DNA from: a virus
Length of the DNA stretch: 64,000 bases
Strand: one strand, 5' to 3'
IMG/VR virus record: IMGVR_UViG_3300009127_000001
Span: 58,318-122,317 of that record
Positions within the stretch are counted from its first letter, which is position 1. Each line of letters opens with the position of its first letter. Below the pieces are notes generated by a model that made no database searches, was not told where the DNA came from, and saw only the letters and a program-made list of their open reading frames with translations. Both the position numbers and the translations under genes were made by a program. Shown here one piece after another: positions 1,450 through 63,352 of the stretch.

Positions 1450-1738
1450 GGAATTACTCTGGATTGATTACACTAAGAAAAATGGTACTTCTAGATATAT
1501 ACTATTCCTCTTACTTGGTAAGCGATCAGGGAAATTATGTGGGTTAGAAACGGATAAAATTCCTGATGCGTATCGTAAGAAAATAGTTAATACTCTGACC
1601 AGTTTATCTTTGGAGTCGAGAATTCGTTGGTTGAGACAAAATTGCCCTATTCTAATGCGATCGGCATATAAGGAACTTGTTGCCGAACGTGCAACAATAC
1701 GCACTAGATACCCCATTGATAAATCTAAGATTGTTTGA
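1448..1738 (+). CDS. Small hypothetical protein (96 aa)
   Basis: Unrecognised basic protein with ordinary amino-acid composition, no signal peptide and no clear domain. A GGAG at about 1438-1441 sits 6 bases before the ATG, a good ribosome-binding site although it lies inside the opposite-strand hub gene. The ATG overlaps the hub gene's own start codon on the other strand, and the stop overlaps the end of the convergent HNH gene by 14 bases. The opposite-strand reading of this stretch is open for 82 codons but looks like a shadow. Location among baseplate genes makes a small assembly or hub-associated factor conceivable, but nothing in the sequence shows it. Confidence 0.55.
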   Translation: MELLWIDYTKKNGTSRYILFLLLGKRSGKLCGLETDKIPDAYRKKIVNTLTSLSLESRIRWLRQNCPILMRSAYKELVAERATIRTRYPIDKSKIV

Positions 1739-2423
1739 TTGTGCTGAAAAATTGCCGAATTTCTTGATCAGAGAATACATTTTTTGCAAGATTTATACAA
1801 TAGCAAACTAGTTGGATATTGGATGCAATATAACCTTTTGACGAATCAATTCTATCGATTGATATAGAATATGGTGATTTTCTAATATGTTGCATTGGGA
1901 TTCCAGTAATAGCACAACGGCCACATTGATGCTCCCAAAGTGCTAGAACATCATTAATAGTAATATACCAACCTTTCTTAGATTTACGTTTTTGTGTATG
2001 CCCAAGCATATATTTCAGAAATCTTTCTGGAGATGCTTCAATATTCTTTAACCATTTTTTTCTTGCTTTTTCTCTCATTGGTTTGTTACGTTCAGCATCA
2101 TGCTTAGAACAATATAATACTTTGCTTTGTCTTGGGAATGGTACTTCTTCTTCTGATTTATTACAGATCTTACAGATTCTAGGGCCATTCCTTTTGGTGA
2201 TGCAACCGCAACTTTGAGTATCTGTTAAATGACTACTTCTTACAACTGTTTGTTTTCCGCATTTATAGCATTTACATTCATAGAATACTCTGTTCTTAAT
2301 TTCATGACGCTTGAATGGTGTTGAGGTGATTTCTAAAAATCCAAATTTAGTTCCGATAGGAATTGTTTTATGATTTGAGCGTGAAGATAATGGTATACGG
2401 GCCGATGCTTGTACATAAGTCAT
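1725..2423 (-). CDS. HNH homing-type endonuclease (232 aa)
   Basis: Free-standing HNH nuclease of the kind that homes into phage genes. The N-terminus (about 22-76) has the 'IGTKFGFL...SHL...SCGC' zinc-ribbon pattern of homing endonucleases with C50, C52, C55, C72 and C74. A second possible zinc site is C84, C87, C105, H108. The nuclease core is near 160-215: W-E-H-Q-C-G-R-C-A-I-T-G, then S-I-S-I-D-R-I-D with D190, N202 and a final N-L-A-K. It resembles the core of the HNH gene at 35087. It lies antisense between the 96-aa gene and the spike gene, both of which look intact, so it occupies intergenic space. The presence of the full N-terminal ribbon supports the first ATG. Confidence 0.85.
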   Translation of the reverse strand: MTYVQASARIPLSSRSNHKTIPIGTKFGFLEITSTPFKRHEIKNRVFYECKCYKCGKQTVVRSSHLTDTQSCGCITKRNGPRICKICNKSEEEVPFPRQSKVLYCSKHDAERNKPMREKARKKWLKNIEASPERFLKYMLGHTQKRKSKKGWYITINDVLALWEHQCGRCAITGIPMQHIRKSPYSISIDRIDSSKGYIASNIQLVCYCINLAKNVFSDQEIRQFFSTIKQS

Positions 2424-9838: not shown

Positions 9839-12800
9839 TGGCTAGGCAGATCAAGGTAGAGAACATATCTCAGAAGTACTTTAACAAGGAAGTAGAGGAA
9901 GAAAAGCACTTCAGACTTGGTGGATCATTCCTTAGTGGATATGTTGGTAAGAAGCCCAAATTTGGCTTTGATGGTTTGGGCGAGTTCATTTTTTACCGCA
10001 CATATTCCCGTGTCACGGATGATGGCTCCAAAGAGACATTCCTTGATACTGCACGTCGTGTTGTCGAAGGTTGCTACGAAATCCAAAGACGGCATCAACG
10101 TCGATTACACTTGCCGTGGGACTATGATAAGGCTCAGGATTCAGCCCAAGAAATGTTTGAGAGGATATGGAACTTTAAGTTCTTGCCTCCCGGTCGCGGT
10201 TTATGGATGATGGGTACTGAGTTCATGTGGGAGAGAGGATCAGCAGCCCTTAATAATTGTGGTTTTGTATCAACATATGATCAGATTGAATCTGACCCAG
10301 CGGAGCCATTCTGTTTTCTTATGGATATATCTATGCTTGGTGTCGGCGTTGGGTTTGATACAAAGGGAGCTAATCGAATACAAATTCATAAGCCCGCATC
10401 TATCGATAATATCTATACGATCGCCGATTCTCGAGAAGGTTGGGTGGACTCTCTGCGTCGTCTTATATGGTCGTATACTATAAAGTCTGATGACGGTAAT
10501 GTTCTATTCAATTATGATGAGATTAGAAGAGCTGGTGAACCAATTAATGGATTTGGTGGCAAAGCATCAGGTCCAAGCATCCTACAATCACTGCATGCAT
10601 TTGTGCGTGAACATTTGGAGTCTAGGATCGGTGCGACACTCTCCAGTGTTGATATAGTCGATATCATGAATTATATAGGGGCCTGTGTAGTAGCTGGTAA
10701 TGTGCGCAGATCCTCAGAAATAGCATTAGGCTCCCCGAAGGACTATGAATATTGTATGATGAAGAGTCCTTTAGCTGATCTGACGAGTACAGAAGCTGAA
10801 GTGTTCACGGAAGTGGTGACGAAGTTGGAAGATGAGGATATTTGGCGTGCCGAACCGATAATGTTTGGCGAAATCGCTATAGGTAGTGATCGATTCCAGA
10901 AGGCCATCGATATTTGGAATGCTAGGAATAGTCATAGATGGGCATCGAACAATTCAATCTTTGCTGAAATAGGCATGGATTATACAGATTTTGCAGAACG
11001 TACTGGTATAAGTGGTGAGCCGGGTTATCAATGGTTGGATAACATACGTGATTTCGGTAGAATGATAGATGGTAGGCGACCTGGTATAGATAGTAGAGCA
11101 TGTGGTACAAACCCCTGCTTCGCCGGAAGTATGCGGATTTTGACGCAATATGGTTATGAAAGACTTGAAGATCTTTGGCTTAGCCAAGGGTCGCTTGAAT
11201 ATGATGGGCTAGGTAGTAATCCATTAGAGAAATATGGCGAGCAGGTCATTGTTAATGATAATGGATTGGCACCAGCAACAAAGGTGTATAGGGTTGGTGC
11301 TGATATTGTGTATCGAGTAATCCTTACAGATGGATCTTGGGTTGATGCTACTAGGAATCATGAATTCATCGTTCTTGATAGGGCAAGAGTCAAGAAGAAG
11401 GTGGAGTATTCTGAGCGAAGAGTAAAACTTGGGGATCTTGAAGTTGGCATGATGATCCCACTCAATCAAACAACTCACGCAACTTCTGCTAATGTGTTGT
11501 ATGATATGGCATATGCAGAGTTGGCTGGCTGGGTAATAGGTGATGGTTCATTATCACCACAAAAAGATGGTCAAGTGCGTGCAAAGTGCGCGTGTTATGA
11601 CGATGATGTTAGTGACGTTTTGCCAAGACTTAGAGGCTTGATGCTTGAAGTATATCACACACATACAAAGTCGACAAATCAACAACCTGTATATGCTGGT
11701 TGGAAAAGAGAGCAAAAACATTTTGAGCATGACGAAGAACATATTGGTTCTACAGTGCTAGGCAGGTTGTTAGTGGCCGATGGGGTCAGATCTGGCGATA
11801 AGCATCATATTCCTTCTAGTATATGGTGTGGATCGCGTGAGACGATAGCAGCATTTCTTAAGGGGTTCGCATCTGCTGATGGTGGTGTTCAAATTAGCGA
11901 TAATGGTACAATATCGGTTAGGATATCACAGTCTAACCAGCAATTGTTATTAGATTGCAGGTTACTGTTTAGTCAACTTGGTATAGCTAGTACTGTTCAA
12001 CATCGAAGAAAATCATCTAAGCAGATGATGAATGATGGGAAAGGCGGCAAGAAATTATATAATCGAAAAGAACAATGGGAATTGATTATATCTGGAATAA
12101 AACAAGTCACGAAATTTCTTGACTACGTAGGTTTCATTCAGCAGTCTAAGATCACTAAAGCAAGACAATGGCTTGTTGGTAAGACTGGTTCTAATAATTC
12201 AGACACTGGTCGATATACTAAAATTAAGTCTGTTGAATGCCTTGGTGAAGACACTGTTTATTGTCTGACTGAGCCGAAAACGAATCAAGTAGTAGTTGAA
12301 GGTCATAAAGTAGGGCAGTGTGGAGAACAGAGTCTTGAATCTTATGAATTGTGCTGCCTCGTCGAGACATTTCCGAATAATCATGATTCCGCCGACGAAT
12401 ATATGAGGACTTTGAAGTTTGCATACTTATATGGGAAGACCGTCACACTATTGCCAACTCATAATGCCAGAACTAACCAAGTGATGTTAAGAAGTCGCCG
12501 GATAGGCCTGTCACAGAGTGGTATTGTCCAGGCTTTTGAGAGGTTTGGCAGACGTAAAGTGCTAAAGGATTTCTGCGATGCTGGATATAACGAGATTCGC
12601 AGATGGGATGAGATCTACTCCGAGTGGTTGTGCGTTCCTAAGTCTATCAAAGTGACTAGTGTTAAGCCTAGTGGTACTGTTAGTCTTATGGTTGGTGCCA
12701 CACCTGGTATACATCACCCAGAATCATGTACGTATTGGCGGCGAGTTAGAATATCGAATGATAGTGTACTTATCAAGATCTTACAAGATGCTGGTTATCA

Positions 12801-33383: not shown

Positions 33384-34979
33384 ATGCTTCCTACGCGCCA
33401 AAAGCGTCGCAGACACATTACCGAGGGACGCGGCCAAGGTCGCCGCCCAATCACCGAAGAAACAGATCTCCACAAAGCAGCGATCATCCACGAAGGTAAG
33501 AAAAACCGACTCGTGGGCAAGTGGAGTCCGGTCCTAAGCAAATGCCGTGAAGTGCCGCAGAAAAAATTCGGCCTGATGGCAAGTATTCTCGAGAACCAGT
33601 TCAATACCTGGAATCCCGAGAACAGAAGCGTCATTCTGGAAGACCAGACGACGACGGCCAACATCGCGGACTTCACCCGTTTCGCGTTACCCCTTATCCG
33701 CAAATCGTATCCGAAGCTGATTGCGGACAACCTCGTTGGCGTCCAGCCGATGAGCCAACCGGCCAGTCTGATCTTCTACATCAGATACCGTTACGCCCTG
33801 ACGAAGGGCCAGACGGTTGCTGGCACCCAGATCATGCGTCAAAACACGGCCCAGACGTTCTCAAGGCAGAACGGTTGGGCTCTGGACCCGTACTACAGCT
33901 CGCAAGAAGTACGCGGTGAAGACGCAACGGTTTCTGGTGGCACGGTTATTGCCGCTACTCTGGCACACCGACCAGTCCTGGCAGGAACGGTGGTTGTCGA
34001 GGCCTTCGAGACGGCCGCAGAAGCCAATCCGGACTGTGAAGAAGCAGTACCCTGCCTACGCGTCAGCTTCGATGCAGACGGCAATCCGGACGTCATCATC
34101 TACGGTGACTGCACGAACTTCACCGACACGATCACGGTCGACGACACCACGACTGGTGCTACCGCGTTTGACCACACGACCGGTGCCGTTCAGATCACGC
34201 TGAGTGCCGGTACACTACCCGCCGGAGCAGTGGCACGGGTTAATTACGAGTACGACCTCGAGGCGAATCCCTTCCAGCCCGAAGTCACGCTGAGCATCGA
34301 CAGCGATTCGGTGGCAGCCATTACTCGTAAGCTGAAGACGAGCTGGTCACTAGAGGCCGCTCAAGACCTCAAGTCGGTTCACAACATCGACGCCGAGTCC
34401 ACCCTCACCGACCTGATGGCCGATGAGATGGTCGCGGAAATCGATCGTGAAATCATCAACGACTTGATAATCGCGGCAGCCATCCGAGCGGACCACAACT
34501 TCGCTACGGCCGCTGGTGCTTCGGTGAACTTCACGGACCGCAACATCGCCTTGATGTATAAAGTCCTTGAAGTGGCCAACATCATCCATAGGACCACCTT
34601 GCGAGGTCCTGCCAACTGGATGGTGATGTCCGCCGATATCTGCTCGAAGTTCGAGCAGTTGAATGACTTCCGAGCGAGCGACGCGTTCACGACCGAGGGT
34701 GTCGACATCGGGATCATGAACATCGGCACGATCCAAGGCAAGATGAAGATCTACAAGGATCCGCTGTTCCCCAACTGCAAGATTCTCATGGGCTTCAAAG
34801 GCAACTCAGTCCTGGATGCGGGCTACTTCTACGCCCCATACATCCCGCTCCTGAGCACGCCAACAGTCCTCGATCCCAACTCGTTCACCCCCAACAAGGG
34901 GATCATGACTCGATATGGGAAGAAACTCATCGAGGATGGGGGTCTTTACTATGCCACCGTAACGGTCTCGAATTTGTAA
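33384..34979 (+). CDS. Major capsid protein, gp23-like (531 aa)
   Basis: HK97-fold capsid subunit of the T4 type. Recognised by F-A-L-P-L-I-R-K-S-Y-P-K-L-I-A-D-N-L-V-G-V-Q-P-M near 100-125 and the C-terminal G-Y-F-Y-A-P-Y-I-P-L-L followed by R-Y-G-K-K-L-I. The first 70 residues are a basic propeptide ending I-L-E before N-Q (68-70/71-72), a gp21-type cut site. GGAGGG lies before the ATG. The gene is G/C-rich with C-ending codons, as expected for a highly expressed gene, and is followed by a strong terminator. Confidence 0.95.
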   Translation: MLPTRQKRRRHITEGRGQGRRPITEETDLHKAAIIHEGKKNRLVGKWSPVLSKCREVPQKKFGLMASILENQFNTWNPENRSVILEDQTTTANIADFTRFALPLIRKSYPKLIADNLVGVQPMSQPASLIFYIRYRYALTKGQTVAGTQIMRQNTAQTFSRQNGWALDPYYSSQEVRGEDATVSGGTVIAATLAHRPVLAGTVVVEAFETAAEANPDCEEAVPCLRVSFDADGNPDVIIYGDCTNFTDTITVDDTTTGATAFDHTTGAVQITLSAGTLPAGAVARVNYEYDLEANPFQPEVTLSIDSDSVAAITRKLKTSWSLEAAQDLKSVHNIDAESTLTDLMADEMVAEIDREIINDLIIAAAIRADHNFATAAGASVNFTDRNIALMYKVLEVANIIHRTTLRGPANWMVMSADICSKFEQLNDFRASDAFTTEGVDIGIMNIGTIQGKMKIYKDPLFPNCKILMGFKGNSVLDAGYFYAPYIPLLSTPTVLDPNSFTPNKGIMTRYGKKLIEDGGLYYATVTVSNL

Positions 34980-35020
34980 ACGACCGTTATCGAGTCTGCT
35001 GTCTTCGAACAAAAATAATG

Positions 35021-35054
35021 AGCCCGGATTGGTTGTTCAGTCCGGGCTTTTTTT
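35021..35054 (+). terminator. Rho-independent terminator after capsid gene
   Basis: AGCCCGGA pairs with TCCGGGCT over about 11 bases of loop and is followed by seven T residues (35048-35054). It closes the head-gene transcript. Confidence 0.9.
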
Positions 35055-35086
35055 GTATGTATTCTAAAGACAGGAGACTATCTAAA

Positions 35087-36100
35087 ATGACATCATTAAA
35101 GAAGCCTGAGAAATGTAGTGAATGCGGGCATACTATTTTTACACACCCAAAGAAGCCTGAAAGGTGGATATGTACTTCCTGTGGACATATAGAAGCCGAA
35201 AGATCTACAAGAAATGATCCGAATAAGTGTCGCGAATGCGGTGATCCACGTGATTCAAAGCCTTTCAAGAAGGGCAGTAATATTTGCCGTGAATGCCAAA
35301 GTAAAGTTCATGAACAATACAGAAAAGACCATGCTGACCGATTGAAACAATATAAAAAAGATGATTATCAGAAGAATAAGAAACAGCGGATAGCTTCAGT
35401 TCGGAAAGCTATCCAAAGGTCTCCTGAAGCTTTTATCAGGAATCTAATGCATCATCTTACAAAACAATCAAATCAAGCTAGAAAAGGAAAAATAACTACT
35501 TATCCAAATAGACAAAGAGCTTTGCTGGGAGTCTCTATTACTTTTGAGGATTTGTGGGGGCTTTATGAAGAGCGGGGCGGCCGTTGTGCTCTTAGTGGTC
35601 TTCCTATGACTCATAAGTTTGGCGATCTTTGTAGTATTTCTGTTGACCGTATTGATTCTGATGAGGGCTATACGAGGGGTAATGTTCAGTTGCTTTGCAA
35701 GTGGGTGAATCTTGCTAAGGGGAAGAGTTCTAATGAGGATTTTATTAGGGTTCTTGTTGGTCAGCGTGGGGTGAGGTGTACTGAGTTGTTGGAGGTTCAT
35801 GGTTGTGAGTTGGATGAGGTTGCTTTGCTTGTTCTTGAGCTTGGTCGGAGGGTGCAGGTGCGGTTTTTTCTGCAGGGTTGGAAGATTCTTGTGACGTTAC
35901 TTGGGTTTCATGTGGATGTTGATTCTGCTAGGAAGTGTAGTACTGTGGTTCATGATGGGGATCTTGTTTTTAGTATGAGTGCTGAGGCGCTTAAGAATCC
36001 GTTTTTTCGTGTTCCTTTGTGTGATCCAAGTGCGATTGAGAAGTGGTGGGGGTGTGTTGAGCAGAAGTTGGAGTGTTTTATACGATCGGGGGCTTGGTAA
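35087..36100 (+). CDS. HNH homing-type endonuclease (337 aa)
   Basis: Free-standing HNH nuclease with N-terminal zinc ribbons (C10, C13, C29, C32; C48, C51, C67, C70) and a core at about 164-213: G-G-R-C-A-L-S-G-L-P-M, S-I-S-V-D-R-I-D, G-N-V-Q-L-L-C, N-L-A-K. The core is clearly related to the HNH gene at 1725. A C-terminal extension of about 110 residues after position 225 has no match I recognise, and its DNA is strikingly rich in G and T with few C. The ATG at 35087 follows AGGAG and leaves the terminator outside the gene; an in-frame ATG at 35018 would overlap it. It sits right after the capsid gene. Confidence 0.85.
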   Translation: MTSLKKPEKCSECGHTIFTHPKKPERWICTSCGHIEAERSTRNDPNKCRECGDPRDSKPFKKGSNICRECQSKVHEQYRKDHADRLKQYKKDDYQKNKKQRIASVRKAIQRSPEAFIRNLMHHLTKQSNQARKGKITTYPNRQRALLGVSITFEDLWGLYEERGGRCALSGLPMTHKFGDLCSISVDRIDSDEGYTRGNVQLLCKWVNLAKGKSSNEDFIRVLVGQRGVRCTELLEVHGCELDEVALLVLELGRRVQVRFFLQGWKILVTLLGFHVDVDSARKCSTVVHDGDLVFSMSAEALKNPFFRVPLCDPSAIEKWWGCVEQKLECFIRSGAW

Positions 36101-44284: not shown

Positions 44285-45108
44285 TATCACCTGAATAGGA
44301 TTCGTAGTCCATATACCTTATTGGCAACTGGCCTGGGTTGTCCATATACTCAAAAGGCACTACAAAAGGTGCCTTTAGATGGTTTCCGAACAAAAATATT
44401 CGTCCGGTTGAACTTCGATATGGTATAATATGGCTAGAAGAGAAATCATATAGTAGAAAACCACTATCTAGAAAAGATTGTGAGAAAGAGAGTTGGGCAA
44501 ATCCTCCTGCGGCTGTTGATCGTCGTCTACATCCCTTTCGTACCCATTCTAATATGTGTTCATGGAAACCGAAGTCTATATCCCATGGTATCCTACCGTG
44601 CTTTCTGTGTATCCTTTCTAGAACATCTGCTTTTGCTATACCGTGTGGTACTATAGCACTTAAATGATTATATGTCTTGTCATAAATCCGCCAGAGAGAT
44701 ACAAAGCCACATAAGAAACCGCAATTCGGTAGTGAGTTGCATCTTGCCGCTAGTTTTCTATCGAATGCGTCTTCAATAAATATTATCGTCTTCTACGAAA
44801 ATGTAATGATCGAATTTGCCTCTATATGTTTCGTACGCGTACGAATAAGAACCATATGAGAAGCCTTCATTAGGTCTTCGTAGAACAACAACTTTGGTGT
44901 TTTCTATTGTCTTTGGTAGTGAGTTGATATATGTAGTAAATGCTACCGGTTCTTCTGGGTTGTATGGTACGACAATCGTTATTTGTGATAGATCGTGGTG
45001 TACTGCATATAAGTGGTTAATATGCGCAGATAATCTTATGACGGGATCGTGATAAACATGGCTTAGTCTTTCGCCAGACCATGTTGCTATTACGTAATTT
45101 GCTTTCAT
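44274..45108 (-). pseudogene. Glycosyltransferase-like gene broken by a frameshift
   Basis: Read from 45108 the frame gives K-A-N-Y-V-I-A-T-W-S-G, V-V-V-L-R-R-P-N-E-G-F-S-Y-G-S-Y-S-Y and I-F-V-E-D-D before a stop at 44773-44775. From the next frame the protein continues E-D-A-F-D-R-K-L-A-A-R, N-C-G-F-L-C-G-F to a stop at 44274-44276. Both pieces match the intact paralogue at 47826 in order, so one gene was split by a one-base insertion or two-base loss near 44775. The D-D of V-E-D-D would be the metal site of a GT-A fold. A sequencing error is possible. The start overlaps the stop of the acetyltransferase gene (ATGA). Confidence 0.75.
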
Positions 45109-45710
45109 TGATACCAATCAGATTCTATAATTCCGTATACTAAACTATCAATCCAACCATCTTCGAATGTTGGATTAGAACCATGTATCACGTCACGTTT
45201 ATGTCCTTCTTTTCGCCATCTTGCATGCTCTGCACAGACTTGTGATGCCTTGTTGTGTTCGAGGATTTCAGCATTTAGGCGATGTAGGTGTAATTCGTTA
45301 AAGCAGAACATCGTACAAGCTGTTAATAGTGCTTTGCCGTAGCCTTTTCCTCGAGAAGCTTCACACCATATACCCCATGACGCATCTGCTCTTCTGTTCA
45401 ACCAATCGATGTCGGACAGGAAGAAAAAGCCTAATGGTGAGATATTGTCTTCATCGTCGTCCATACCTTCTGGTATGTATGTCACCTCTAGAAATAAATT
45501 ACGTGGGGAGTCGGTACTCTGATCTAAATTATCGAACCATCGTGTTTGATCATCTAAATTTAAGAAGAGTCTTCGGTGTAGAAAGTTTTGTGATTCATGT
45601 CTAAATGATAAGGCAGCCGTTATGAGTGAGTCGGAGAACATGGCTTTGTTTAGGATCACCGTCATTTGGCCGGTGCCGGTTCCTACTTTACAGCTGAACA
45701 TTTGTCTCAT
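45105..45710 (-). CDS. GNAT acetyltransferase, RimJ/RimL or PseH-like (201 aa)
   Basis: Acetyltransferase with the family profile of nucleotide-sugar and ribosomal-protein acetyltransferases: D-A-S-W-G-I-W-C-E-A-S-R-G-K-G-Y-G-K-A-L-L (about 109-129), then H-R-L-N-A-E-I-L-E-H-N-K-A-S and a C-terminal basic segment. It lies directly downstream of the DegT-type aminotransferase gene and upstream of the glycosyltransferase, so N-acetylation of an aminosugar is the likely role. The aminotransferase stop and this start overlap. Confidence 0.8.
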   Translation of the reverse strand: MRQMFSCKVGTGTGQMTVILNKAMFSDSLITAALSFRHESQNFLHRRLFLNLDDQTRWFDNLDQSTDSPRNLFLEVTYIPEGMDDDEDNISPLGFFFLSDIDWLNRRADASWGIWCEASRGKGYGKALLTACTMFCFNELHLHRLNAEILEHNKASQVCAEHARWRKEGHKRDVIHGSNPTFEDGWIDSLVYGIIESDWYQ

Positions 45711-46822
45711 TACCAGCCCTTTTTAATCTGATCGACGATATATTCTCGTCCTTCTTGATCTACCCACCAACCGCATGGTATACAAATCATGTCGCTGCAT
45801 ACCGAATCCGTATTAGGTAGAATACATCTATATTGTTTGAGGCAAGTGTGTTTATCATTACGGTCGTGTACTTGGCTTGTAGCTATACCGACTTCTCCCA
45901 TCTTTCTAGTAAAATCGCTCCTCCGTTCTACTCGCATTGTGTATATCCAATATGAAGATTCACGATTTTGAGCGTTTTCTAATAATGTAACACCTGCCAC
46001 TTCGGACAGTTCTCGATTGAAATATTTGCCATTCTCTTTGTGCTTTTTGACTATATCATTTACTTTAGGTAAGTTATGCAATCCTATCGCAGCATTCAAG
46101 TCATTCATATGAAACTTGAATCCCCATTCCTGTATATCTTGTTCGCACCGGAATTGAGCACTTCGTGTTCTATCTAGGCCGTACCATCTTAATAGTTTAG
46201 CGCGTTGGTGTAATATATCATTTGGTGTTACTAGTAAACCACCATCTACTGATGTAAGATGTTTAATCGCTTGAAAGCTGAAACAACATATATTACCGTG
46301 GTTCCCTAATAATCTAGTGTTATATGTAGCACCCCAGGCATGCGCACAGTCTTCAATAATAGGTGGGCAAAACCCGTGTAATTCTACACATTTTTGTTGT
46401 ATTTCTCGCAGATTGTCTAAGTCGCATGGATAACCGCCCCAATGTACTACTAATATTGCTTTTGTTGTTGGGCTGATCTTTCGTGCGAGATCATTCATAT
46501 CCATATTACATGTATATGGATTGATGTCCACCCATTTGATCCCTAGATCATTTGCAAGAATTGGGAAATTAGTTGCTGTACATGTGAGTGGAGTTGTTAG
46601 AACTTCATCTCCAGGGTTGAGGTTCAAGAGATGAATTGCTAGATGTATGGCTGCTGTACCACTATAGGTAGTATTTATATGTGGTGTCCCTAGATGAGAC
46701 CGCAACTCTTTCTCAAATTCTTCTACTTTATCGCCTTGTCCCACGTAACCGGACATGAGGACTTCTTTGACCGGCTCGATGACGTCCTCTGATATAGCTA
46801 CTTGAAATAGAGGAATTTTCAT
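45710..46822 (-). CDS. DegT/DnrJ/StrS sugar aminotransferase (370 aa)
   Basis: PLP-dependent aminotransferase acting on nucleotide 4-keto sugars. Family features: N-terminal P-L-F-Q-V, G-T-A-A-I-H-L-A (55-62), D-E-V-L-T-T-P-L-T (72-80), the PLP-phosphate/ring contacts near I-E-D-C-A-H-A (156-162) and the Schiff-base lysine K187 in S-F-Q-A-I-K-H-L-T-S-V-D-G-G. Length is typical. ATG 46822 has GGAGG upstream on its strand; a longer frame from 46861 lacks one. First gene of the antisense aminotransferase, acetyltransferase, glycosyltransferase operon. Confidence 0.92.
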   Translation of the reverse strand: MKIPLFQVAISEDVIEPVKEVLMSGYVGQGDKVEEFEKELRSHLGTPHINTTYSGTAAIHLAIHLLNLNPGDEVLTTPLTCTATNFPILANDLGIKWVDINPYTCNMDMNDLARKISPTTKAILVVHWGGYPCDLDNLREIQQKCVELHGFCPPIIEDCAHAWGATYNTRLLGNHGNICCFSFQAIKHLTSVDGGLLVTPNDILHQRAKLLRWYGLDRTRSAQFRCEQDIQEWGFKFHMNDLNAAIGLHNLPKVNDIVKKHKENGKYFNRELSEVAGVTLLENAQNRESSYWIYTMRVERRSDFTRKMGEVGIATSQVHDRNDKHTCLKQYRCILPNTDSVCSDMICIPCGWWVDQEGREYIVDQIKKGW

Positions 46823-46873
46823 TAGATGCCTCCGGGTAAATATTATAAGTACGCTTAACAAGGGAGATGGAAA

Positions 46874-53433: not shown

Positions 53434-54777
53434 ATGGCGAAAATCAGTGTCATTAAGGAGTCGGTCCTGCTCTGCCGGGCAGGCGACGTGACCCCATTCA
53501 TCTGGGGCCATCGAGGTCTCGGCAAGTCCAGTTTGGTCCAACAATTGGCCGCTGAGAACGGTTGGGGTTTTATCGACTTGCGATGCTCGCAGTTGGAAGC
53601 GTCCGACATTCGCGGTTTGCCAGCGAAGGGCGAAGATCGCAGAACGCATTATCTACCACCCGCCGATATGCCGCTAGGCGACAAGGACCAAGAGCAAATC
53701 ACCGTAGAATTGGCCGAACTCTTGGGGATCAAAGGCGGCGACGGTGCGAAGGTAGATATCCCCACCGAAATCCAGAAACGGCTGACAAAGGCTGGTCTTG
53801 AAGAGCAGCGCCAGTACTTCGAGAGGTTGCAGCAGCTGCAGCCTCACTTCCAGCGTGGCATCCTCTTTATCGACGAGGTCAACAGAGCCCAGGATGATGT
53901 CCTGCAGGCTATCTTCCAGTTGGTCTTGGACCGCCGCGTTGGCCAGTACGTTCTGCCGCCGGGGTGGTGTGTGGTAGCGGCCGGAAACTTCATGGAAGGC
54001 TATATGGTTACCGGATTCAACGATCCGGCCTTCCTCGACCGTTTCTGCCACATCACGCTGTCCGCTGGTGAGACGACTTTGGAGGAATGGGTCAACTACA
54101 TGTCCGATGTCCACGGCGGTGACGCTGCGGAAGTGATCGAATTCGCTTCGCAGAACACTAAGCACCTGGACGGCGACATCGCTGGCGAGCTTGGATTCTC
54201 GGTGCAACCCTCGAGACGATCCTGGGAAATGATCGCGAAAATCCAGAAGGCACACCGTGATGGTGATTTCTCGCAGAGCGCCGCGTTCGAGGTTTACTCG
54301 GGGCTGATCGGTCGAGAACTCGCTCAGGCCTTCTCGCGATACTCCTGCCCGGTGAAGCCGCGTGATCTGATGTCGCGTGGTGTTGCGGCTTACGAGAAGC
54401 AACTGCAGAAGCTGGATCGCAACCAACTGACCGGCTTGATGTGGGGTTTGGTGTCGTTCTGCAAGAACACGATCGAGAAGGACGAAGTCGCCGACGTTTG
54501 CTTGGATTTCGCGAGCTTCATGGTTCACCACGCGAACGACAAGGACGTGGTTGTCGCTTTCTGCCGTGCCCTGGTTAGCGGGAACAACCCGAAGGACCAC
54601 CAGGAGAAGGCACGAGCGGCCGTGATCTCGAATCCTCGCTTGGCGAACATGATCTCGAAGTTCAACAAGCAGTCGAAGACAAAGAAAAAGACGTTCGTGG
54701 ACCGACTCACCGAGCGTCCGGAACTGCAAAAGGCCTTGTCCAGGGTTTCCTGGGGAACGGTCGGCACCGATTCGTAA
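53434..54777 (+). CDS. MoxR-family AAA+ ATPase (447 aa)
   Basis: AAA+ ATPase of the MoxR type, which remodels or helps assemble protein complexes. Walker A G-H-R-G-L-G-K-S (25-32), Walker B L-F-I-D-E (144-148), sensor 1 A-A-G-N (182-185) and arginine region L-D-R-F (201-204) are intact. Members usually pair with a VWA-domain protein; none is visible next door. The gene is G/C-rich with C-ending codons like the capsid gene, suggesting high expression or separate ancestry. GAGGAGTTAGAAA precedes the ATG and a strong terminator follows. Confidence 0.85.
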   Translation: MAKISVIKESVLLCRAGDVTPFIWGHRGLGKSSLVQQLAAENGWGFIDLRCSQLEASDIRGLPAKGEDRRTHYLPPADMPLGDKDQEQITVELAELLGIKGGDGAKVDIPTEIQKRLTKAGLEEQRQYFERLQQLQPHFQRGILFIDEVNRAQDDVLQAIFQLVLDRRVGQYVLPPGWCVVAAGNFMEGYMVTGFNDPAFLDRFCHITLSAGETTLEEWVNYMSDVHGGDAAEVIEFASQNTKHLDGDIAGELGFSVQPSRRSWEMIAKIQKAHRDGDFSQSAAFEVYSGLIGRELAQAFSRYSCPVKPRDLMSRGVAAYEKQLQKLDRNQLTGLMWGLVSFCKNTIEKDEVADVCLDFASFMVHHANDKDVVVAFCRALVSGNNPKDHQEKARAAVISNPRLANMISKFNKQSKTKKKTFVDRLTERPELQKALSRVSWGTVGTDS

Positions 54778-57646: not shown

Positions 57647-57883
57647 ATGTATCTTAGTAACAGGAGAGGTAGCGTGGATGATAAGAAATGCCAAATCTGC
57701 GGTAAAGCAATACCAAAAGCGCGGTTAAAGGTATTACCTACGACTATAACTTGTGTCCGCTGTAGTACCGAAAAATCGCGCGTAGGTGCTATGGTTGATA
57801 TTGGGGACAGCACCCTGGAACTGCAAATGGCAGACCCAGATAATGAATATATGAAGGACAGTCTTAAAAGGCCTACTTCATAG
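57647..57883 (+). CDS. DksA/TraR-like zinc-finger protein (78 aa)
   Basis: Small protein with C15-x2-C18, then R-L-x-x-L-P and C36-x2-C39, the zinc-finger pattern of DksA/TraR regulators that bind RNA polymerase and alter transcription. The DksA coiled coil is missing, as in short phage TraR relatives. TTGGAGAAAG precedes the ATG. It could also be a general zinc ribbon. Confidence 0.6.
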   Translation: MYLSNRRGSVDDKKCQICGKAIPKARLKVLPTTITCVRCSTEKSRVGAMVDIGDSTLELQMADPDNEYMKDSLKRPTS

Positions 57884-58760
57884 CTTTTTTATCTTTTTCA
57901 TAGCGTGTTAGGGTGCATTCATTACCTATACATGTTGAACATACTGTTAGTTTATCGTATTCGCCTGCCTTGAATTGTCTTTTTTGTTCTTTGCGAGCTT
58001 TGGATTTTAACGCTTCCTTAATTGTTTGCTTGCTTAGATCACCGTATGTCATAGTCATATCCATATCAAGACAGCATGCTGTAACCAGCCCACTTTGGGC
58101 AACCCACATTGTCTTGCTAAATATTTGGTCGCAGCTTGGGCGTATGTCCTCTTCGTGTTTGCGTACTCTGAGATCGCGGCTTTTGTCTTGATGCCTGCCA
58201 CAAAATTGGGATCTTACTGGGATTTTAAACAATTTGCGATATCGCTCTACTAATTCTCCAACATTGATATCTGTTACGATCCGTTGAATCTTAAGCCCGC
58301 GTAGCTTACCTTTCGTCTTACTAATGAAGTATAATGCGTTTTCTATTGCTACATCTAATTTTCCGCCGACTCTTAATTTATCATATACTTCTTCATCTAG
58401 CGAATCGATGCAGAGTCGTACATTTTTAGTCCGTCTGTGTACTTCTATGAAACCAGCGTCTAATAATCTATCTGTTCGCTCTGGTGTTAATAGTATACAA
58501 TTTGTTGAGAAGCTATTACCAACACGCATATCATGCTCGCGCAAATACTCGAGCATTTCATCGAATCTATTGGCAAGCAAGGGTTCACCGGCGAAGTGTA
58601 ATTGCTGGATTCCGTGTTTTCCTTTACTGCTTTTGATATCGTCAATTATCTTACAAAAGAGCGAGAATTCCATGTCTTTCTTTGGGCGTGTCATTGATGG
58701 CCAGCCACACATTGAACATTGTAAGTTACAGCGGCTGGTTACTTCTATACCTAATTGCAT
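57873..58760 (-). CDS. Radical SAM/SPASM protein (295 aa)
   Basis: Second radical SAM enzyme: C11-N-L-Q-C15-S-M-C18 for the iron-sulfur cluster, F-A-G-E-P-L in the SAM site, and a SPASM-type C-terminus with A-C-C-L-D-M-D, C-S-T-C and N-E-C. It is only distantly like the 37520 protein. Its start overlaps the end of the capsule-type glycosyltransferase gene by 10 bases, so the two are cotranscribed. It probably modifies a sugar or peptide. Confidence 0.87.
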   Translation of the reverse strand: MQLGIEVTSRCNLQCSMCGWPSMTRPKKDMEFSLFCKIIDDIKSSKGKHGIQQLHFAGEPLLANRFDEMLEYLREHDMRVGNSFSTNCILLTPERTDRLLDAGFIEVHRRTKNVRLCIDSLDEEVYDKLRVGGKLDVAIENALYFISKTKGKLRGLKIQRIVTDINVGELVERYRKLFKIPVRSQFCGRHQDKSRDLRVRKHEEDIRPSCDQIFSKTMWVAQSGLVTACCLDMDMTMTYGDLSKQTIKEALKSKARKEQKRQFKAGEYDKLTVCSTCIGNECTLTRYEKDKKAMK

Positions 58761-59614
58761 TCTGTAGCTCCTCTCTTTAATAATTCCCAGAAATCACCAT
58801 TTTCTAGTTCTTCTGGGGACCATTGGCAATAAGCTATGTTATGTGCCCATTGGGTTCTGTCTGGGGTATGTGGTGGTCCAATAACACTTTCGATGTCATT
58901 CTGCACAAGACCGTAAACCATCGAGCCCTCGTCAATAGCAATAGTTGGTGTACCGGCTAGGACTGCAAGCACTCCAGTATTGCTGTTGAAGGTTATTACA
59001 TATTTTGCTTGTTTCAGGACTTGATATAGGTCTGAGTTTAGTCCATCTCCACAGACTTCCATATATTTGTCGAAGTCTTCGGATTTGCGTAATCCTGGGT
59101 GGGGTCTATAAATTGTTGGTATATTATAATGATCAAGAAAGGATCTGGTCTTTTCAATCCATCGGCTGAATTTGATGTGGCGGACGGCTATATCGTTCTG
59201 TTTCTGTCCGACTAATAATATATAGTTACCGCTGGTATCCCATTCTTGCATGCAATCTTGGTGGTGTCTTTCCCATCTGTCGCTGGGCATTTGGTCGTCG
59301 ATGCAAAAATCTGCTCTGCCGTTTAGGCCGTCGTATCCTGCGGACGTCCATTCGAATCTATTACCAACATAAGCTCGTTCAACAACTATGAATCTGGGGT
59401 ATAATCGTTTTATTCTTTCTAGATTGAATCCTCCCCAGATAACTGCTATATCCCCTTTTCTTTTTATTTGTTTGTGTTTTGGTTTTGGGTATATATCTTC
59501 GATGATATCGATGTTCTTTTGTCTTTTTAGACCAGTAACAAATTTACTCAATAGGATATCCATAGCGATCTTTTTGCTGTGATGGCTGCGATGATAGGCG
59601 ACTATTTTGAGCAT
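58751..59614 (-). CDS. Capsule-type glycosyltransferase-like protein (287 aa)
   Basis: GT-B-like protein of the capsular-polysaccharide kind: Y-R-P-H-P-G-L-R (about 168-175), then A-K-Y-V-I-T-F-N-S-N-T-G-V-L-A-V-L-A and G-T-P-T-I-A-I-D-E-G-S-M, the usual nucleotide-sugar or CDP-glycerol transferase end. Upstream N-terminal I-A-V-I-W-G-G-F. It is paired with the radical SAM gene. Divergent from the 59643 gene with only 28 bases between, so promoters must be tight. Confidence 0.6.
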   Translation of the reverse strand: MLKIVAYHRSHHSKKIAMDILLSKFVTGLKRQKNIDIIEDIYPKPKHKQIKRKGDIAVIWGGFNLERIKRLYPRFIVVERAYVGNRFEWTSAGYDGLNGRADFCIDDQMPSDRWERHHQDCMQEWDTSGNYILLVGQKQNDIAVRHIKFSRWIEKTRSFLDHYNIPTIYRPHPGLRKSEDFDKYMEVCGDGLNSDLYQVLKQAKYVITFNSNTGVLAVLAGTPTIAIDEGSMVYGLVQNDIESVIGPPHTPDRTQWAHNIAYCQWSPEELENGDFWELLKRGATECN

Positions 59615-59642: not shown

Positions 59643-60401
59643 ATGGGTTATATAGCAGAAGATAATCCTCGAGCTCGCCCTGAATTAGTTTGTAATAGAA
59701 ACTTGACTGACGATGAAACCTGTCGAGCATGCTTTTCACAACATCTTCGTAAAGACAAGAATGACCAATTTGTTGATATACCATTGGATAAATTGGTTAA
59801 TGACGCACCATGTGTCGCAATTCTACTAAAAAGATTAGTTGCCAGACTGCGTAGATCAAGTAGGCCGCCAGAGCTCTTAAGAGAAGATTGGTTATATTTT
59901 AAAGAATTGTTTGAATCTAAATACGAGTTTTGGATCAGTTTTTGTAGTACTAGATGGTTAGTTTCTATCTTAACAACATATATTGACCATGCCGATCCAT
60001 TAGAAAGCAGAAATGCAATGATCGCTATATTACCAGCTAGTTGGGAGGTAATGGTACAAAACAGAATGTCTAGTACTGAGGAGGGTTGGGAGTTTCGCAA
60101 GAAGAGAGCAAGTGAATTATCACCATATTCAAGGCGCAGATGGAAAGTACATCCGAGCATTCGCAACTCAAGGCCCGCCTTTTGGTCTGGACAGCAGTCA
60201 TTCACATCGCCGGGAGATATGCCGATAAAGTTGCTTAGAAGAGTTAGTACTATATTGCGTTCGACACCAATAATTTATAAAGTGTTCAAATATATTATTG
60301 CAGAAATGCTGAGGGCTCCCGAGACCACTATAGGTGCACTAACCGATCTTGATTATGAGAATTTCAGGAGGATATCTAGGAAATATAAGGCTAATATATG
60401 A
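59643..60401 (+). CDS. Hypothetical protein upstream of fused transferase (252 aa)
   Basis: Unrecognised Arg-rich protein with an early C-N-R-N...C-R-A-C-F cluster and long helical stretches; no membrane segment. AGGAG precedes the ATG. It is coupled to the sulfotransferase-glycosyltransferase gene by ATGA, so it may be a partner or helper of that enzyme. Function unknown. Confidence 0.55.
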   Translation: MGYIAEDNPRARPELVCNRNLTDDETCRACFSQHLRKDKNDQFVDIPLDKLVNDAPCVAILLKRLVARLRRSSRPPELLREDWLYFKELFESKYEFWISFCSTRWLVSILTTYIDHADPLESRNAMIAILPASWEVMVQNRMSSTEEGWEFRKKRASELSPYSRRRWKVHPSIRNSRPAFWSGQQSFTSPGDMPIKLLRRVSTILRSTPIIYKVFKYIIAEMLRAPETTIGALTDLDYENFRRISRKYKANI

Positions 60402-61639
60402 TAATAAGTACCTCTAAAAAATTTATATTTATTCATAATCCTAAAACTGCTGGATTCAGTTTTGAGGCCGCATTAGAAGAATATGTCCGGCCCGACTTCT
60501 GTCTAGCGCTAAACAGAGCTCTACGTTCCAAACATTCCAGTATCCCGACCTGTTTTGAGACGCAGAGAGGTAAGATGCGGCATTTAAGTTTGCAAAATAT
60601 CTGTAAATTACATCATCTTGGCATTATTGATATTTCTGATTATTTCATTTTCGGCTTTGTTAGAAATCCTTGGGACAGATTTGCGTCGGCCTACCATTAT
60701 ATAATTGGGTCAACAAAGAGGAAGTGGCGAAGAGGGAGAATTCGGAAAGGAGACATAAATCGTTTTGCCAGAAGATTAAATTGTCAAAAACAATGGGCTA
60801 TTGCAACTCTTAGAAGGCCTCCATTTGACCCTCAGATACATTATTTCGAGCAAGATATTCTTCCAGATTTGCGATATAAGCCATTGATCGGTTACTATGA
60901 AAGATTAGATGAATATACTGAGTATATTAGCAGAATGATAGGCATACCCATACAATTGCCTCATATTAATAAAAGCGCAAATACTGATTATATCAGTCAA
61001 CTTAGTGAAAAAACTAAAGAATTAATTGGAAAATGGTATAGTCGAGACGTGGAAACTTTTGGGTATACTTTCGACACACACCCCATTCATAATCGTGGGT
61101 TACTGAAACTCTGCGACCACAAGAAGATATTAATAGTTGGTAATGCCAGAGTAGATTGGACTGGGAAATCGCTCGATGATTATACTGTTGTTAGAATCAA
61201 TAGATATCATCGGGAACATGAAGGCGGAACCAATAGGTGTGATATATGGGCCGTTAATAGCAGCTTAATTAAATCTGCTAGAGTTCGAGAATGGGAAGCT
61301 ATTGGTTATAAGCATCTCATCACTGCAGGGGGGAGTGTTGTTAGGACATTGCGAAGACGTAAACCACAAGAAGCATATAAAATACATCCGTGGCCAACAA
61401 GCAAACAACGAGCTAGTGCAGCAATCGATTGTCCTGTAATTAGTGCTAGTGCTGGCACTCGAGCTATTGCTGCTTTTCTTGGTCTAGACGTAACTATTGC
61501 TGGTTTTGATTTCTTCAAGACAAGGAGTAGGTACTCTAAACCGAGAAGAAAACATCATTTTGGGTGGGAAAGACAGTACGTTAGAAAGCTTATAGAAGAT
61601 AGGAAAATATCTGTAATGGAAGGCACTTGTAATATTTAA
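60398..61639 (+). CDS. Sulfotransferase fused to GT29-like glycosyltransferase (413 aa)
   Basis: Two enzymes in one chain. Residues 1-225 form a family 2 sulfotransferase: H-N-P-K-T-A-G-F-S (13-21) and F-V-R-N-P-W-D-R-F-A-S-A-Y (87-99) bind PAPS. Residues 242-413 resemble family 29 sialyltransferase-like proteins: I-L-I-V-G-N-A, V-V-R-I-N, S-A-G-T-R-A-I-A (351-358), A-G-F-D-F-F (368-373) and H-H-F-G-W-E-R-Q-Y (386-394). A short linker joins them. Joined activity would add a sugar and sulfate to one glycan. I know of no such fusion in a phage. The end overlaps the convergent methyltransferase gene by 4 bases. Confidence 0.78.
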   Translation: MIISTSKKFIFIHNPKTAGFSFEAALEEYVRPDFCLALNRALRSKHSSIPTCFETQRGKMRHLSLQNICKLHHLGIIDISDYFIFGFVRNPWDRFASAYHYIIGSTKRKWRRGRIRKGDINRFARRLNCQKQWAIATLRRPPFDPQIHYFEQDILPDLRYKPLIGYYERLDEYTEYISRMIGIPIQLPHINKSANTDYISQLSEKTKELIGKWYSRDVETFGYTFDTHPIHNRGLLKLCDHKKILIVGNARVDWTGKSLDDYTVVRINRYHREHEGGTNRCDIWAVNSSLIKSARVREWEAIGYKHLITAGGSVVRTLRRRKPQEAYKIHPWPTSKQRASAAIDCPVISASAGTRAIAAFLGLDVTIAGFDFFKTRSRYSKPRRKHHFGWERQYVRKLIEDRKISVMEGTCNI

Positions 61640-62433
61640 TAATTCATATAAACTCTTTCAGTCATCCTTCTCTTCGATTTGCCTCCAGCAGCATTATTCG
61701 GCAAATCGAAGTTCTTCACCTTCCAGCCCTTCAATACAGTATCATACATCTTATTTGGGTAACTGGATAGTATTACCTTTCCTTTTAGATTACATATTGC
61801 TGCGAGCATTTCCATGTGTTGCTCGTCTGACATTTGAAATCGGTAAACTCCTTGTGTCGCCACACATCCTTGGGGATATGTTGGGTCAAGGTAGAATAAA
61901 GTCTGTACGCTATCATTCTTCTTTATGATTACTACAGCATCATCGTGATAAATGAATACTCGCTGGAGACGAGCGTGTACTTCTGGGAGACCTTCAACAG
62001 TGTTGATCCAAGCTGAACATTGCTCATTCATGCCTCGGCGTGTGCGAGTCTTAGAAACAGGGGCAAAATTGACACCTCTACCTGATAGTGATTGGCGGCA
62101 TCTGATGAAGAAATAGATCGCGGCGTCCACATCTAGATATTGCTGCGGTGCTGTTGGTGCGGCCTCTGCCCATTCTACTTGGGAGAATGGGGTAGCGTCT
62201 ATCCGTCGTTTGAATTCTTCGAATGTAGCTGGGTTCTGTAAGACTCGCCAGAAGTTAGTAAGATCGAGGTCTATATCATTTACAACTTCTGATGTCTTGG
62301 CTGGATCTTTTCTAAGCAGAACTGAACCACCAAAATAAGGTTCTACATAATGTATGTGTGGCGGCATCAAAGCTAGAATACGAGTTGCTAGGTATGATTT
62401 GCCACCGTGGTATTTGAGAGGACTTCTTGGCAT
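61636..62433 (-). CDS. DNA adenine methyltransferase, D12 class (265 aa)
   Basis: N6-adenine DNA methyltransferase with K-Y-H-G-G-K (7-12) and V-E-P-Y-F-G-G-S (30-37) as the AdoMet site and D-P-T-Y (183-186) as the catalytic motif, where the usual form is D-P-P-Y; the second Pro being Thr is a variation found in some family members. Likely protects phage DNA against host restriction. It is single and antisense. Target sequence cannot be told from sequence. Confidence 0.88.
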   Translation of the reverse strand: MPRSPLKYHGGKSYLATRILALMPPHIHYVEPYFGGSVLLRKDPAKTSEVVNDIDLDLTNFWRVLQNPATFEEFKRRIDATPFSQVEWAEAAPTAPQQYLDVDAAIYFFIRCRQSLSGRGVNFAPVSKTRTRRGMNEQCSAWINTVEGLPEVHARLQRVFIYHDDAVVIIKKNDSVQTLFYLDPTYPQGCVATQGVYRFQMSDEQHMEMLAAICNLKGKVILSSYPNKMYDTVLKGWKVKNFDLPNNAAGGKSKRRMTERVYMNY

Positions 62434-62500: not shown

Positions 62501-63352
62501 ATGATCGTGAGGATAGCCGGTAATCATAGCAGATATCATCATGGGTGCAAGCAAGTTTACAGATGTTTGTGTAAACAGATTAGAGATAGTGGGCATACTG
62601 TATATGACGGAGTTGGAAAAGTTGATGCTTTAATTGTTAACGGCGAAGGATCGATGCATCACAATTCTAGTACGTTTCAGCGTAAGATGAAGCTCTTACG
62701 TAGGTTTCAGAAGTTAGGGATACCAACATATTTGATAAACACTGTGTGGGATACGAATCCACCAACCAAAAGAATTCTTAGAACTCTTTCCAGAACTAAA
62801 TATATTTCAGTCAGAGAAATTCTAAGCCAAACAGAATTAGCGAACACATACCGGATTCATGCTGATATACATATAGATTTGAGTTATTGGTCTGAATTCA
62901 AGGAAAGGAAGTACGATCAGCAGTATGGTCTCGCTATTGGTAATCTTAGGCAAAATAAACCTGGGATTGAAGGAGATGTACGAATAAACATTAAGAGAGA
63001 TAGTTGGGGGAAGATGATAGGTATTTTGCGGAATTGTGAGATTTTTGTGACCGCAAGATTCCATGAAGTACATGCGGCTTGCAAGGCTAGGTGTCCATTT
63101 GTTTCTATCGGCGGAAGCTCGCATAAGATAAATGGGCTATTACGCTATGCTGATGTTGACATACCAGTTCTGCCAGCTATGGCAAGCCGCATGGAGATCC
63201 AAAAACAAATTGATATTATCAAATCAAGAAAAGACCAATTTGAGAAATTATTTGACTTTATGGAGGCATGCGAACCACTCGATGTGGGTAAAATGCTTGC
63301 TAGTGCTGATATGTGCTCAGATCAATCTTCATCTTCTACCGAGCAGACATGA
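62501..63352 (+). CDS. Polysaccharide pyruvyltransferase-like protein (283 aa)
   Basis: Related to CsaB/WcaK-type proteins that add pyruvate to glycans. Typical pieces: an early I-V-N-G-E-G-S-M-H-H (about 45-54), and V-T-A-R-F-H-E-V-H-A-A-C near 185-196 with S-I-G-G-S after it. The donor-site Glu and His (G-E-G and R-F-H) are present. Divergent from the methyltransferase gene. Its 3' end overlaps the antisense zinc-ribbon gene by 31 bases. Confidence 0.72.
   Translation: MIVRIAGNHSRYHHGCKQVYRCLCKQIRDSGHTVYDGVGKVDALIVNGEGSMHHNSSTFQRKMKLLRRFQKLGIPTYLINTVWDTNPPTKRILRTLSRTKYISVREILSQTELANTYRIHADIHIDLSYWSEFKERKYDQQYGLAIGNLRQNKPGIEGDVRINIKRDSWGKMIGILRNCEIFVTARFHEVHAACKARCPFVSIGGSSHKINGLLRYADVDIPVLPAMASRMEIQKQIDIIKSRKDQFEKLFDFMEACEPLDVGKMLASADMCSDQSSSSTEQT

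Follow-up and report, generated by a model that had tools for sequence, protein, structure and literature searches.

The fusion gene and its surroundings

The window analysed here covers the final 64 kb of an IMG/VR record of 122,317 bases (IMGVR_UViG_3300009127_000001), whose two ends share no overlap. The record belongs to a tailed phage, as seen from its T4-type major head protein, terminase, portal and baseplate genes. Located 2.4 kb from the record end, one open reading frame encodes a protein of 413 aa in which an N-terminal Sulfotransfer_2 domain is followed by a C-terminal GT29-like domain (Table 1). The frame starts with an ATG, closes with a stop codon that ends at 61639 and is single and uninterrupted throughout; at this base composition, the chance of 413 stop-free codons is ∼2e-11. 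The gene directly upstream, which overlaps the start of the fusion gene, had no family match in Pfam, PHROGs or NCBIfam and is probably translated together with it. The fusion gene is overlapped at its 3′ end by a gene for a D12-class DNA adenine methyltransferase, which lies on the other strand (61636-62433, -).

Several genes for glycan modification were identified around the fusion and elsewhere in the record. The polysaccharide pyruvyl transferase family gene downstream likely belongs to the same glycan set as the fusion, and the remaining candidates of the window are listed in Table 1. Outside the window, two further Sulfotransfer_2 genes were found at record positions 1573-2349 (-) and 9857-10324 (+), near genes for a 653 aa GT2-type protein, a Glyco_trans_1_2 protein and a Glyco_tranf_2_5 protein; the glycosyltransferases of the record are of the GT2/GT1 type. 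At the left end of the record (L016:1552-3047), the second Sulfotransfer_2 gene and a permuted papain-like (Peptidase_C92) gene overlap. Neither an APS kinase nor a CMP-sugar synthetase was recognised in the record, so that both donors would have to be supplied by the host or by a part of the genome outside the sequenced record.

Table 1. Features of the fusion gene and of the glycan-related genes in the window.
Feature	Position	Strand	Basis
Fusion gene, N-terminal Sulfotransfer_2 and C-terminal GT29-like domain	60398..61639	+	ORF, Pfam, PHROGs, profile comparisons
Sulfotransferase domain, residues 2-223	60401..61066	+	PF03567, phrog_3347, AlphaFold, Foldseek
Linker, about residues 224-239	61067..61114	+	Sequence; no in-frame ATG/GTG/TTG
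GT29-like domain, about residues 240-409	61115..61624	+	Phage-family HMM, hhalign
Gene without functional match, 252 aa, overlaps fusion start by ATGA	59643..60401	+	No family match
Polysaccharide pyruvyl transferase family gene	62501..63352	+	PF04230, E 4.8e-9
Possible capsule-synthesis/glycosyltransferase-like gene (weak)	58751..59614	-	PF05159, E 0.12, below cut-off
Radical SAM/SPASM gene	57873..58760	-	PF04055 and PF13186
DegT/DnrJ/EryC1 sugar aminotransferase	45710..46861	-	PF01041, E 1.4e-80
GNAT acetyltransferase, adjoins DegT gene	45105..45710	-	PF13302, E 2e-11

Two observations concern the phage as a whole. The GC3 values of the major head protein gene (33384-34979) and of the AAA ATPase gene (53434-54777) were 0.71 and 0.72, respectively, whereas most other genes lie at about 0.3-0.4. 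A 360 aa protein (35018-36097, +) presented a TFIIB-like zinc ribbon (E 1.3e-5, 25.1 of 29 bits), which suggested an archaeal host; this suggestion was set aside, as the match is below the Pfam cut-off.

The sulfotransferase domain

The N-terminal half was matched by PF03567 (Sulfotransfer_2) over residues 2-223, with an E-value of 1.1e-13 and a score of 52.4 bits against a cut-off of 22, and the match spanned model positions 4-251 of 252. In PHROGs, residues 1-225 matched phrog_3347, 'Galactose-3-O-sulfotransferase' (E 2.4e-18). The 5′-PSB loop IHNPK16T17AG (HNPK16T17AG at 60434-60454) holds the catalytic-type K16, and an alignment with 25 phage relatives showed that H13, P15 and G19 of this loop are invariant. 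The candidate catalytic base H62 (60581) was found in more than 90% of these relatives. An H-x-S segment falls at the same region in the profile match to HS2ST, and we take H62 to be the equivalent of the HS2ST catalytic base. The 3′-PB segment R89NPWDRFAS97 (60662-60688) contains the PXXRXXS signature as P91WDR94FAS97, with R89, P91, R94 and S97 invariant in the 25 relatives. This signature is listed, together with other hallmarks, for polysaccharide sulfotransferases (PMC11625862).

The structural comparisons agreed with this assignment. Among solved structures, a profile of the sulfotransferase-half family retrieved the heparan sulfate 2-O- and 6-O-sulfotransferases, and the AlphaFold models of residues 1-228 had a mean pLDDT mostly between 65 and 95. 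Of the viral structures found by Foldseek, five matched at E<=1e-3 (best E 8e-9), and three of these carry the name sulfotransferase; the top PDB structure matches were also sulfotransferases, but weak. As judged from the sequence, the identification of the N-terminal half as a Sulfotransfer_2 domain with all signature residues is fully supported, and the two profile matches and the retained residues bear out the sulfotransferase half that had been proposed in a preliminary description of the locus.

The GT29-like domain

Direct searches with the C-terminal half found no family match in Pfam (even at E 10), PHROGs or NCBIfam, and its relationship to GT29 was instead traced through intermediates. 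Within the candidate set, blastp linked it to standalone phage proteins of 181-193 aa at an E of about 1e-8. An HMM of 73 small phage proteins scored 26.4 bits on the fusion, with matches to the small-protein family at 26-29 bits, while 2000 shuffles of the C-terminal half reached at most 8.0 bits and no other ORF of the window exceeded 2.2 bits. Several of the small standalone relatives pass the PF00777 cut-off (29.8 bits against 23, E 5e-7), the match being present in 7 of the 11 aligned (up to E 5e-7), and those over the cut-off share 25-30% identity with the C-terminal half. A joint profile of the small family and the window sequence aligned over 169 columns, at an hhalign probability of 96.6, with the alignment made from bona fide phage GT29s, whose members mostly score 60-110 bits to PF00777. 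The C-terminal sequence alone gave 9.8 bits against the bona fide GT29s, slightly above the noise (shuffle maximum 6.6).

The conserved motifs of the family were then located in the domain. A remnant of motif L (VGN249, VVR266IN268 and CD282IW) aligns with the bona fide GT29s and keeps the donor-site asparagine pair, N249 and N268. The motif S remnant ASAG353T...GLDVTIAG369FDFF aligns with SPTIGF...LYGFDF, and motif VS is present as H386HFGWE391, an Hx4E pattern that aligns with SHNLEAE of a clear GT29. The histidine of motif VS is the catalytic base in GT29 enzymes (PMC10225777), and it was kept in all of the compared phage relatives. For motif III, only RY379S was found at the expected place, in a stretch 7-9 residues shorter. 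The earlier claim that both halves keep their binding motifs holds for PSB and PXXRXXS and for motifs L, S and VS, and not clearly for motif III.

The structure prediction that had been proposed as a check succeeded for the N-terminal half, but the models of the C-terminal half were poor, with a pLDDT of 34 for the half alone and mostly <50 in the full chain. The MAFFT alignment of the mixed set was left out of the folding, as it aligned relatives of the C-terminal half onto the N-terminal half. Given the lack of a profile match of its own, the unclear motif III and the poorly modelled fold, we label the domain 'GT29-like' and not as a GT29 member. At the sequence level, the GT29-like character proposed in the preliminary description holds through intermediates, the homologous phage proteins of which several pass the GT29 cut-off, and not through a direct match.

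The standalone 181 aa GT29-like gene occurs in many viral contigs, at L003:5971-6516 and about 70 further loci. In the former contig, it is located between GT8-like/methyltransferase genes and a terminase-like gene. Three tested proteins of this type had no match in PHROGs.

Search for further fusions

Viral relatives of the N-terminal half were 184-269 aa long and those of the C-terminal half 149-226 aa, all of them standalone; no ORF among them matched both halves, and no fetched locus carries both. No other fusion was detected in 62 phage records, chosen for a related major head protein (MCP) or as look-alikes and with four of them covered by both searches, or in 50,697 annotated phage records searched by tblastn with the protein and its halves, where one weak sulfotransferase was returned. 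Two scans of genome contigs for the C-terminal half gave no confirmed match. A Sulfotransfer_2 gene on the same record as the 181 aa GT29-like gene was found in 0 of 30 records, which were short fragments in which the control also gave no match.

A 1003 aa jumbo-phage protein (L239:3351-6362; L240:4275-7286, -) was considered as a further fusion and is retained as a lead only. By eye, its chain comprises sulfotransferase-like, GT29-like, GT-D-like and DXD glycosyltransferase parts; in Pfam, the last part was over the cut-off, the GT29-like and GT-D parts were weak and the first 240 residues gave nothing.

Both halves are thus predicted to be of known enzyme kinds, and with no other fusion found, their joining in one chain appears to be a new arrangement, seen once. 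The novelty among phages that had been claimed earlier therefore stands across the 62 and the 50,697 records. On the whole, the observation of the preliminary description is confirmed and its interpretation partly supported.

Glycan islands of other phages

GT29 and sulfotransferase genes were observed close to each other in other phages. The 484 kb uncultured phage LR756508.1, an unannotated record, carries several GT29 genes and two Sulfotransfer_2 genes within 18 kb; its standalone GT29 genes, within 305000-330000, match PF00777 with up to 110 bits. Reading this island by eye, we recognised NeuB-like (sialic-acid-synthase-like), NeuA-like (cytidylyltransferase-like) and sugar-nucleotide genes, as well as GDP-mannose dehydratase, GDP-fucose synthase and GT25-like genes. 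In the IMG/VR record G071, a cytidylyltransferase (PF02348), a DegT gene, a Sulfotransfer_2 gene and a weak GT29-like gene lie within about 8-9 kb, the GT29-like part being a weak match at the C-terminal part of a 650 aa protein. The pairing of GT29-like transfer with sulfation, as predicted from these genes, is one that recurs in phages, elsewhere as separate genes.

A third record, G026 (370 kb, IMG/VR; L241:3648-7638), has a clear GT29 (E 3e-21) near PF02348, DAHP_synth_1 and DHDPS genes, and no Sulfotransfer_2 gene was found in it. This set of DAHP/KDO8P-synthase-family, DHDPS-family and cytidylyltransferase genes suggests a phage-encoded CMP-ulosonate pathway, which would point to a CMP-ulosonate as the donor.

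Proposed function and alternative explanations

Taken at its simplest, the fused state would mean that two consecutive steps are performed on one glycan. We favour, with moderate confidence, a bifunctional enzyme that would add a CMP-activated (ulosonic-type) sugar and a sulfate to the same glycan. In this tailed, T4-like phage, the protein would be a cytoplasmic enzyme with two domains, both acting on glycans. Its N-terminal domain may transfer sulfate from host PAPS to a sugar hydroxyl, with PAPS held by K16 and R89...S97 and with H62 as the base. The C-terminal domain would then be a minimal GT29-like glycosyltransferase using a CMP-activated sugar as its donor, most likely a host ulosonic acid, e.g., Kdo, or a nonulosonic acid; the nucleotide would be bound near N249 and N268, with H386 as the base. 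This domain may add its sugar to the residue that receives the sulfate or to a neighbouring one, the single chain handing the glycan between the two adjacent steps. The product could be an acidic decoration of a host or virion glycan, made in concert with the glycosyltransferases, aminotransferase and pyruvyltransferase that the phage itself encodes; from the gene neighbourhood, it may be a sulfated surface glycan. The fuller scheme, in which the one chain performs both reactions on the same glycan in the order 'glycosylate-then-sulfate' so that a host or virion glycan receives a doubly acidic decoration while the infection proceeds, is offered tentatively, as a possibility that we would not yet favour. 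We know of no bifunctional 'glycosylate-then-sulfate' enzyme from any organism.

The fusion could also be a product of error, two adjacent phage genes having been joined by sequencing or assembly. It was seen in one metagenome sequence, close to the end of the record, and no second assembly of the virus or other independent copy was found. Against this, the stretch from residue 218 to where the second domain starts lacks an in-frame ATG, GTG or TTG, and positions 61034 to 61142 contain no ATG in any of the frames. A lost stop between two genes would accordingly leave the second gene startless, making an artefact of this type unlikely. Codon usage and GC3 agree between the two halves (0.05/0.09 and 0.30/0.29), and those of both halves fit the other genes of the phage. 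The frame is kept exactly at the domain boundary, and the join (about residues 226-240) coincides with the end and the beginning of the two kinds of standalone relative. An assembly or sequencing artefact is therefore an unlikely source of the fusion, to which we assign a very small probability; the possible assembly artefact of which the preliminary description had warned was not apparent in the start codons or in the codon usage.

The alternatives to a second active enzyme concern the C-terminal half. The main rival, which we consider improbable, is that this half is no longer an enzyme and that it steers the active sulfotransferase by binding the acceptor glycan or a nucleotide. The half is the most divergent of its set, lacks a clear motif III and a Pfam match of its own and is shortened from motif S to motif VS; on the other hand, a dead enzyme would most likely have lost N249, N268, D282, G353, H386 and E391, all of which are kept, and the conservation of the motif histidine in every compared phage relative argues in the same direction. 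Its poor models, its low score against the bona fide GT29s and its length, ∼100 residues short of the Pfam model, likewise count against a bifunctional enzyme, as does the absence of a recognised APS kinase or CMP-sugar synthetase from the record. It is doubtful, and to a greater degree, that the half is a Rossmann-like sugar enzyme nearer to GT42 or to another CMP-sugar family, in which case only the label 'CMP-sugar transferase-like' would apply. Although the half itself had no match to GT42 (PF06002), a profile that included the window sequence weakly touched Campylobacter GT42 structures (E 0.02), and a single phage relative did so with CST-I (E 0.03-0.045). PF00777, however, retrieves more relatives with better scores, the Hx4E pattern stands at the GT29 position, and GT42 and GT29 are themselves related (PMC5811610).

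If the fusion is natural and bifunctional, it names a partner reaction, by putting a sulfotransferase and a GT29-like transferase into one pathway; this reading fits the clusters in which unrelated huge phages carry the two as separate genes. In the literature, what phage sulfotransferases do biologically is described as unclear (PMC10580990). Furthermore, small phage GT29-like proteins that lie near or below the usual profile cut-off would now join the picture of the GT29 family, whose described members come mainly from eukaryotes and from a few proteobacteria (PMC5811610).

Comparison with known systems

The N-terminal half shares with the Sulfotransfer_2 carbohydrate sulfotransferases (heparan sulfate 2-O-/6-O-sulfotransferases; phrog_3347) a whole-domain profile, the PSB lysine, PXXRXXS and the candidate catalytic histidine. 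Unlike these enzymes, it is about 225 aa long, has no Golgi membrane anchor and is followed by a second enzyme domain. The C-terminal half has in common with the GT29 sialyltransferases and their small phage relatives the VGN/VRxN asparagines, the G-F-D-F of motif S and the Hx4E of motif VS. It differs from GT29 (PF00777) in its length (about 170 aa against 272 model positions), in its score below the Pfam cut-off and in its fusion to a sulfotransferase. The cysteine pair of motifs L and S in opisthokont GT29 is missing here, as it is from bacterial GT29 (PMC5811610).

The islands of LR756508.1 and G071 combine GT29 and sulfotransferase with glycosyltransferase and nucleotide-sugar genes, but as separate genes, whereas here the two domains form one chain and the record contains no recognised CMP-sugar synthetase. 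In the parts of the giant-virus study that we consulted (PMC10117803), no chain of a sulfotransferase and a GT29 is mentioned for the glycan clusters, and the cluster of Moumouvirus australiensis is described there with a sulfotransferase beside papain-like, aminotransferase, acetyltransferase and multi-domain glycosyltransferase genes. The multidomain glycosyltransferase A111/114R of PBCV-1 shows that multi-domain viral glycan enzymes are already known. A 429 aa Megaviridae 'GT25' protein, A0A5J6VIG4, contains a region with a sulfotransferase-like fold, which hints at another fusion of a glycosyltransferase with a sulfotransferase.
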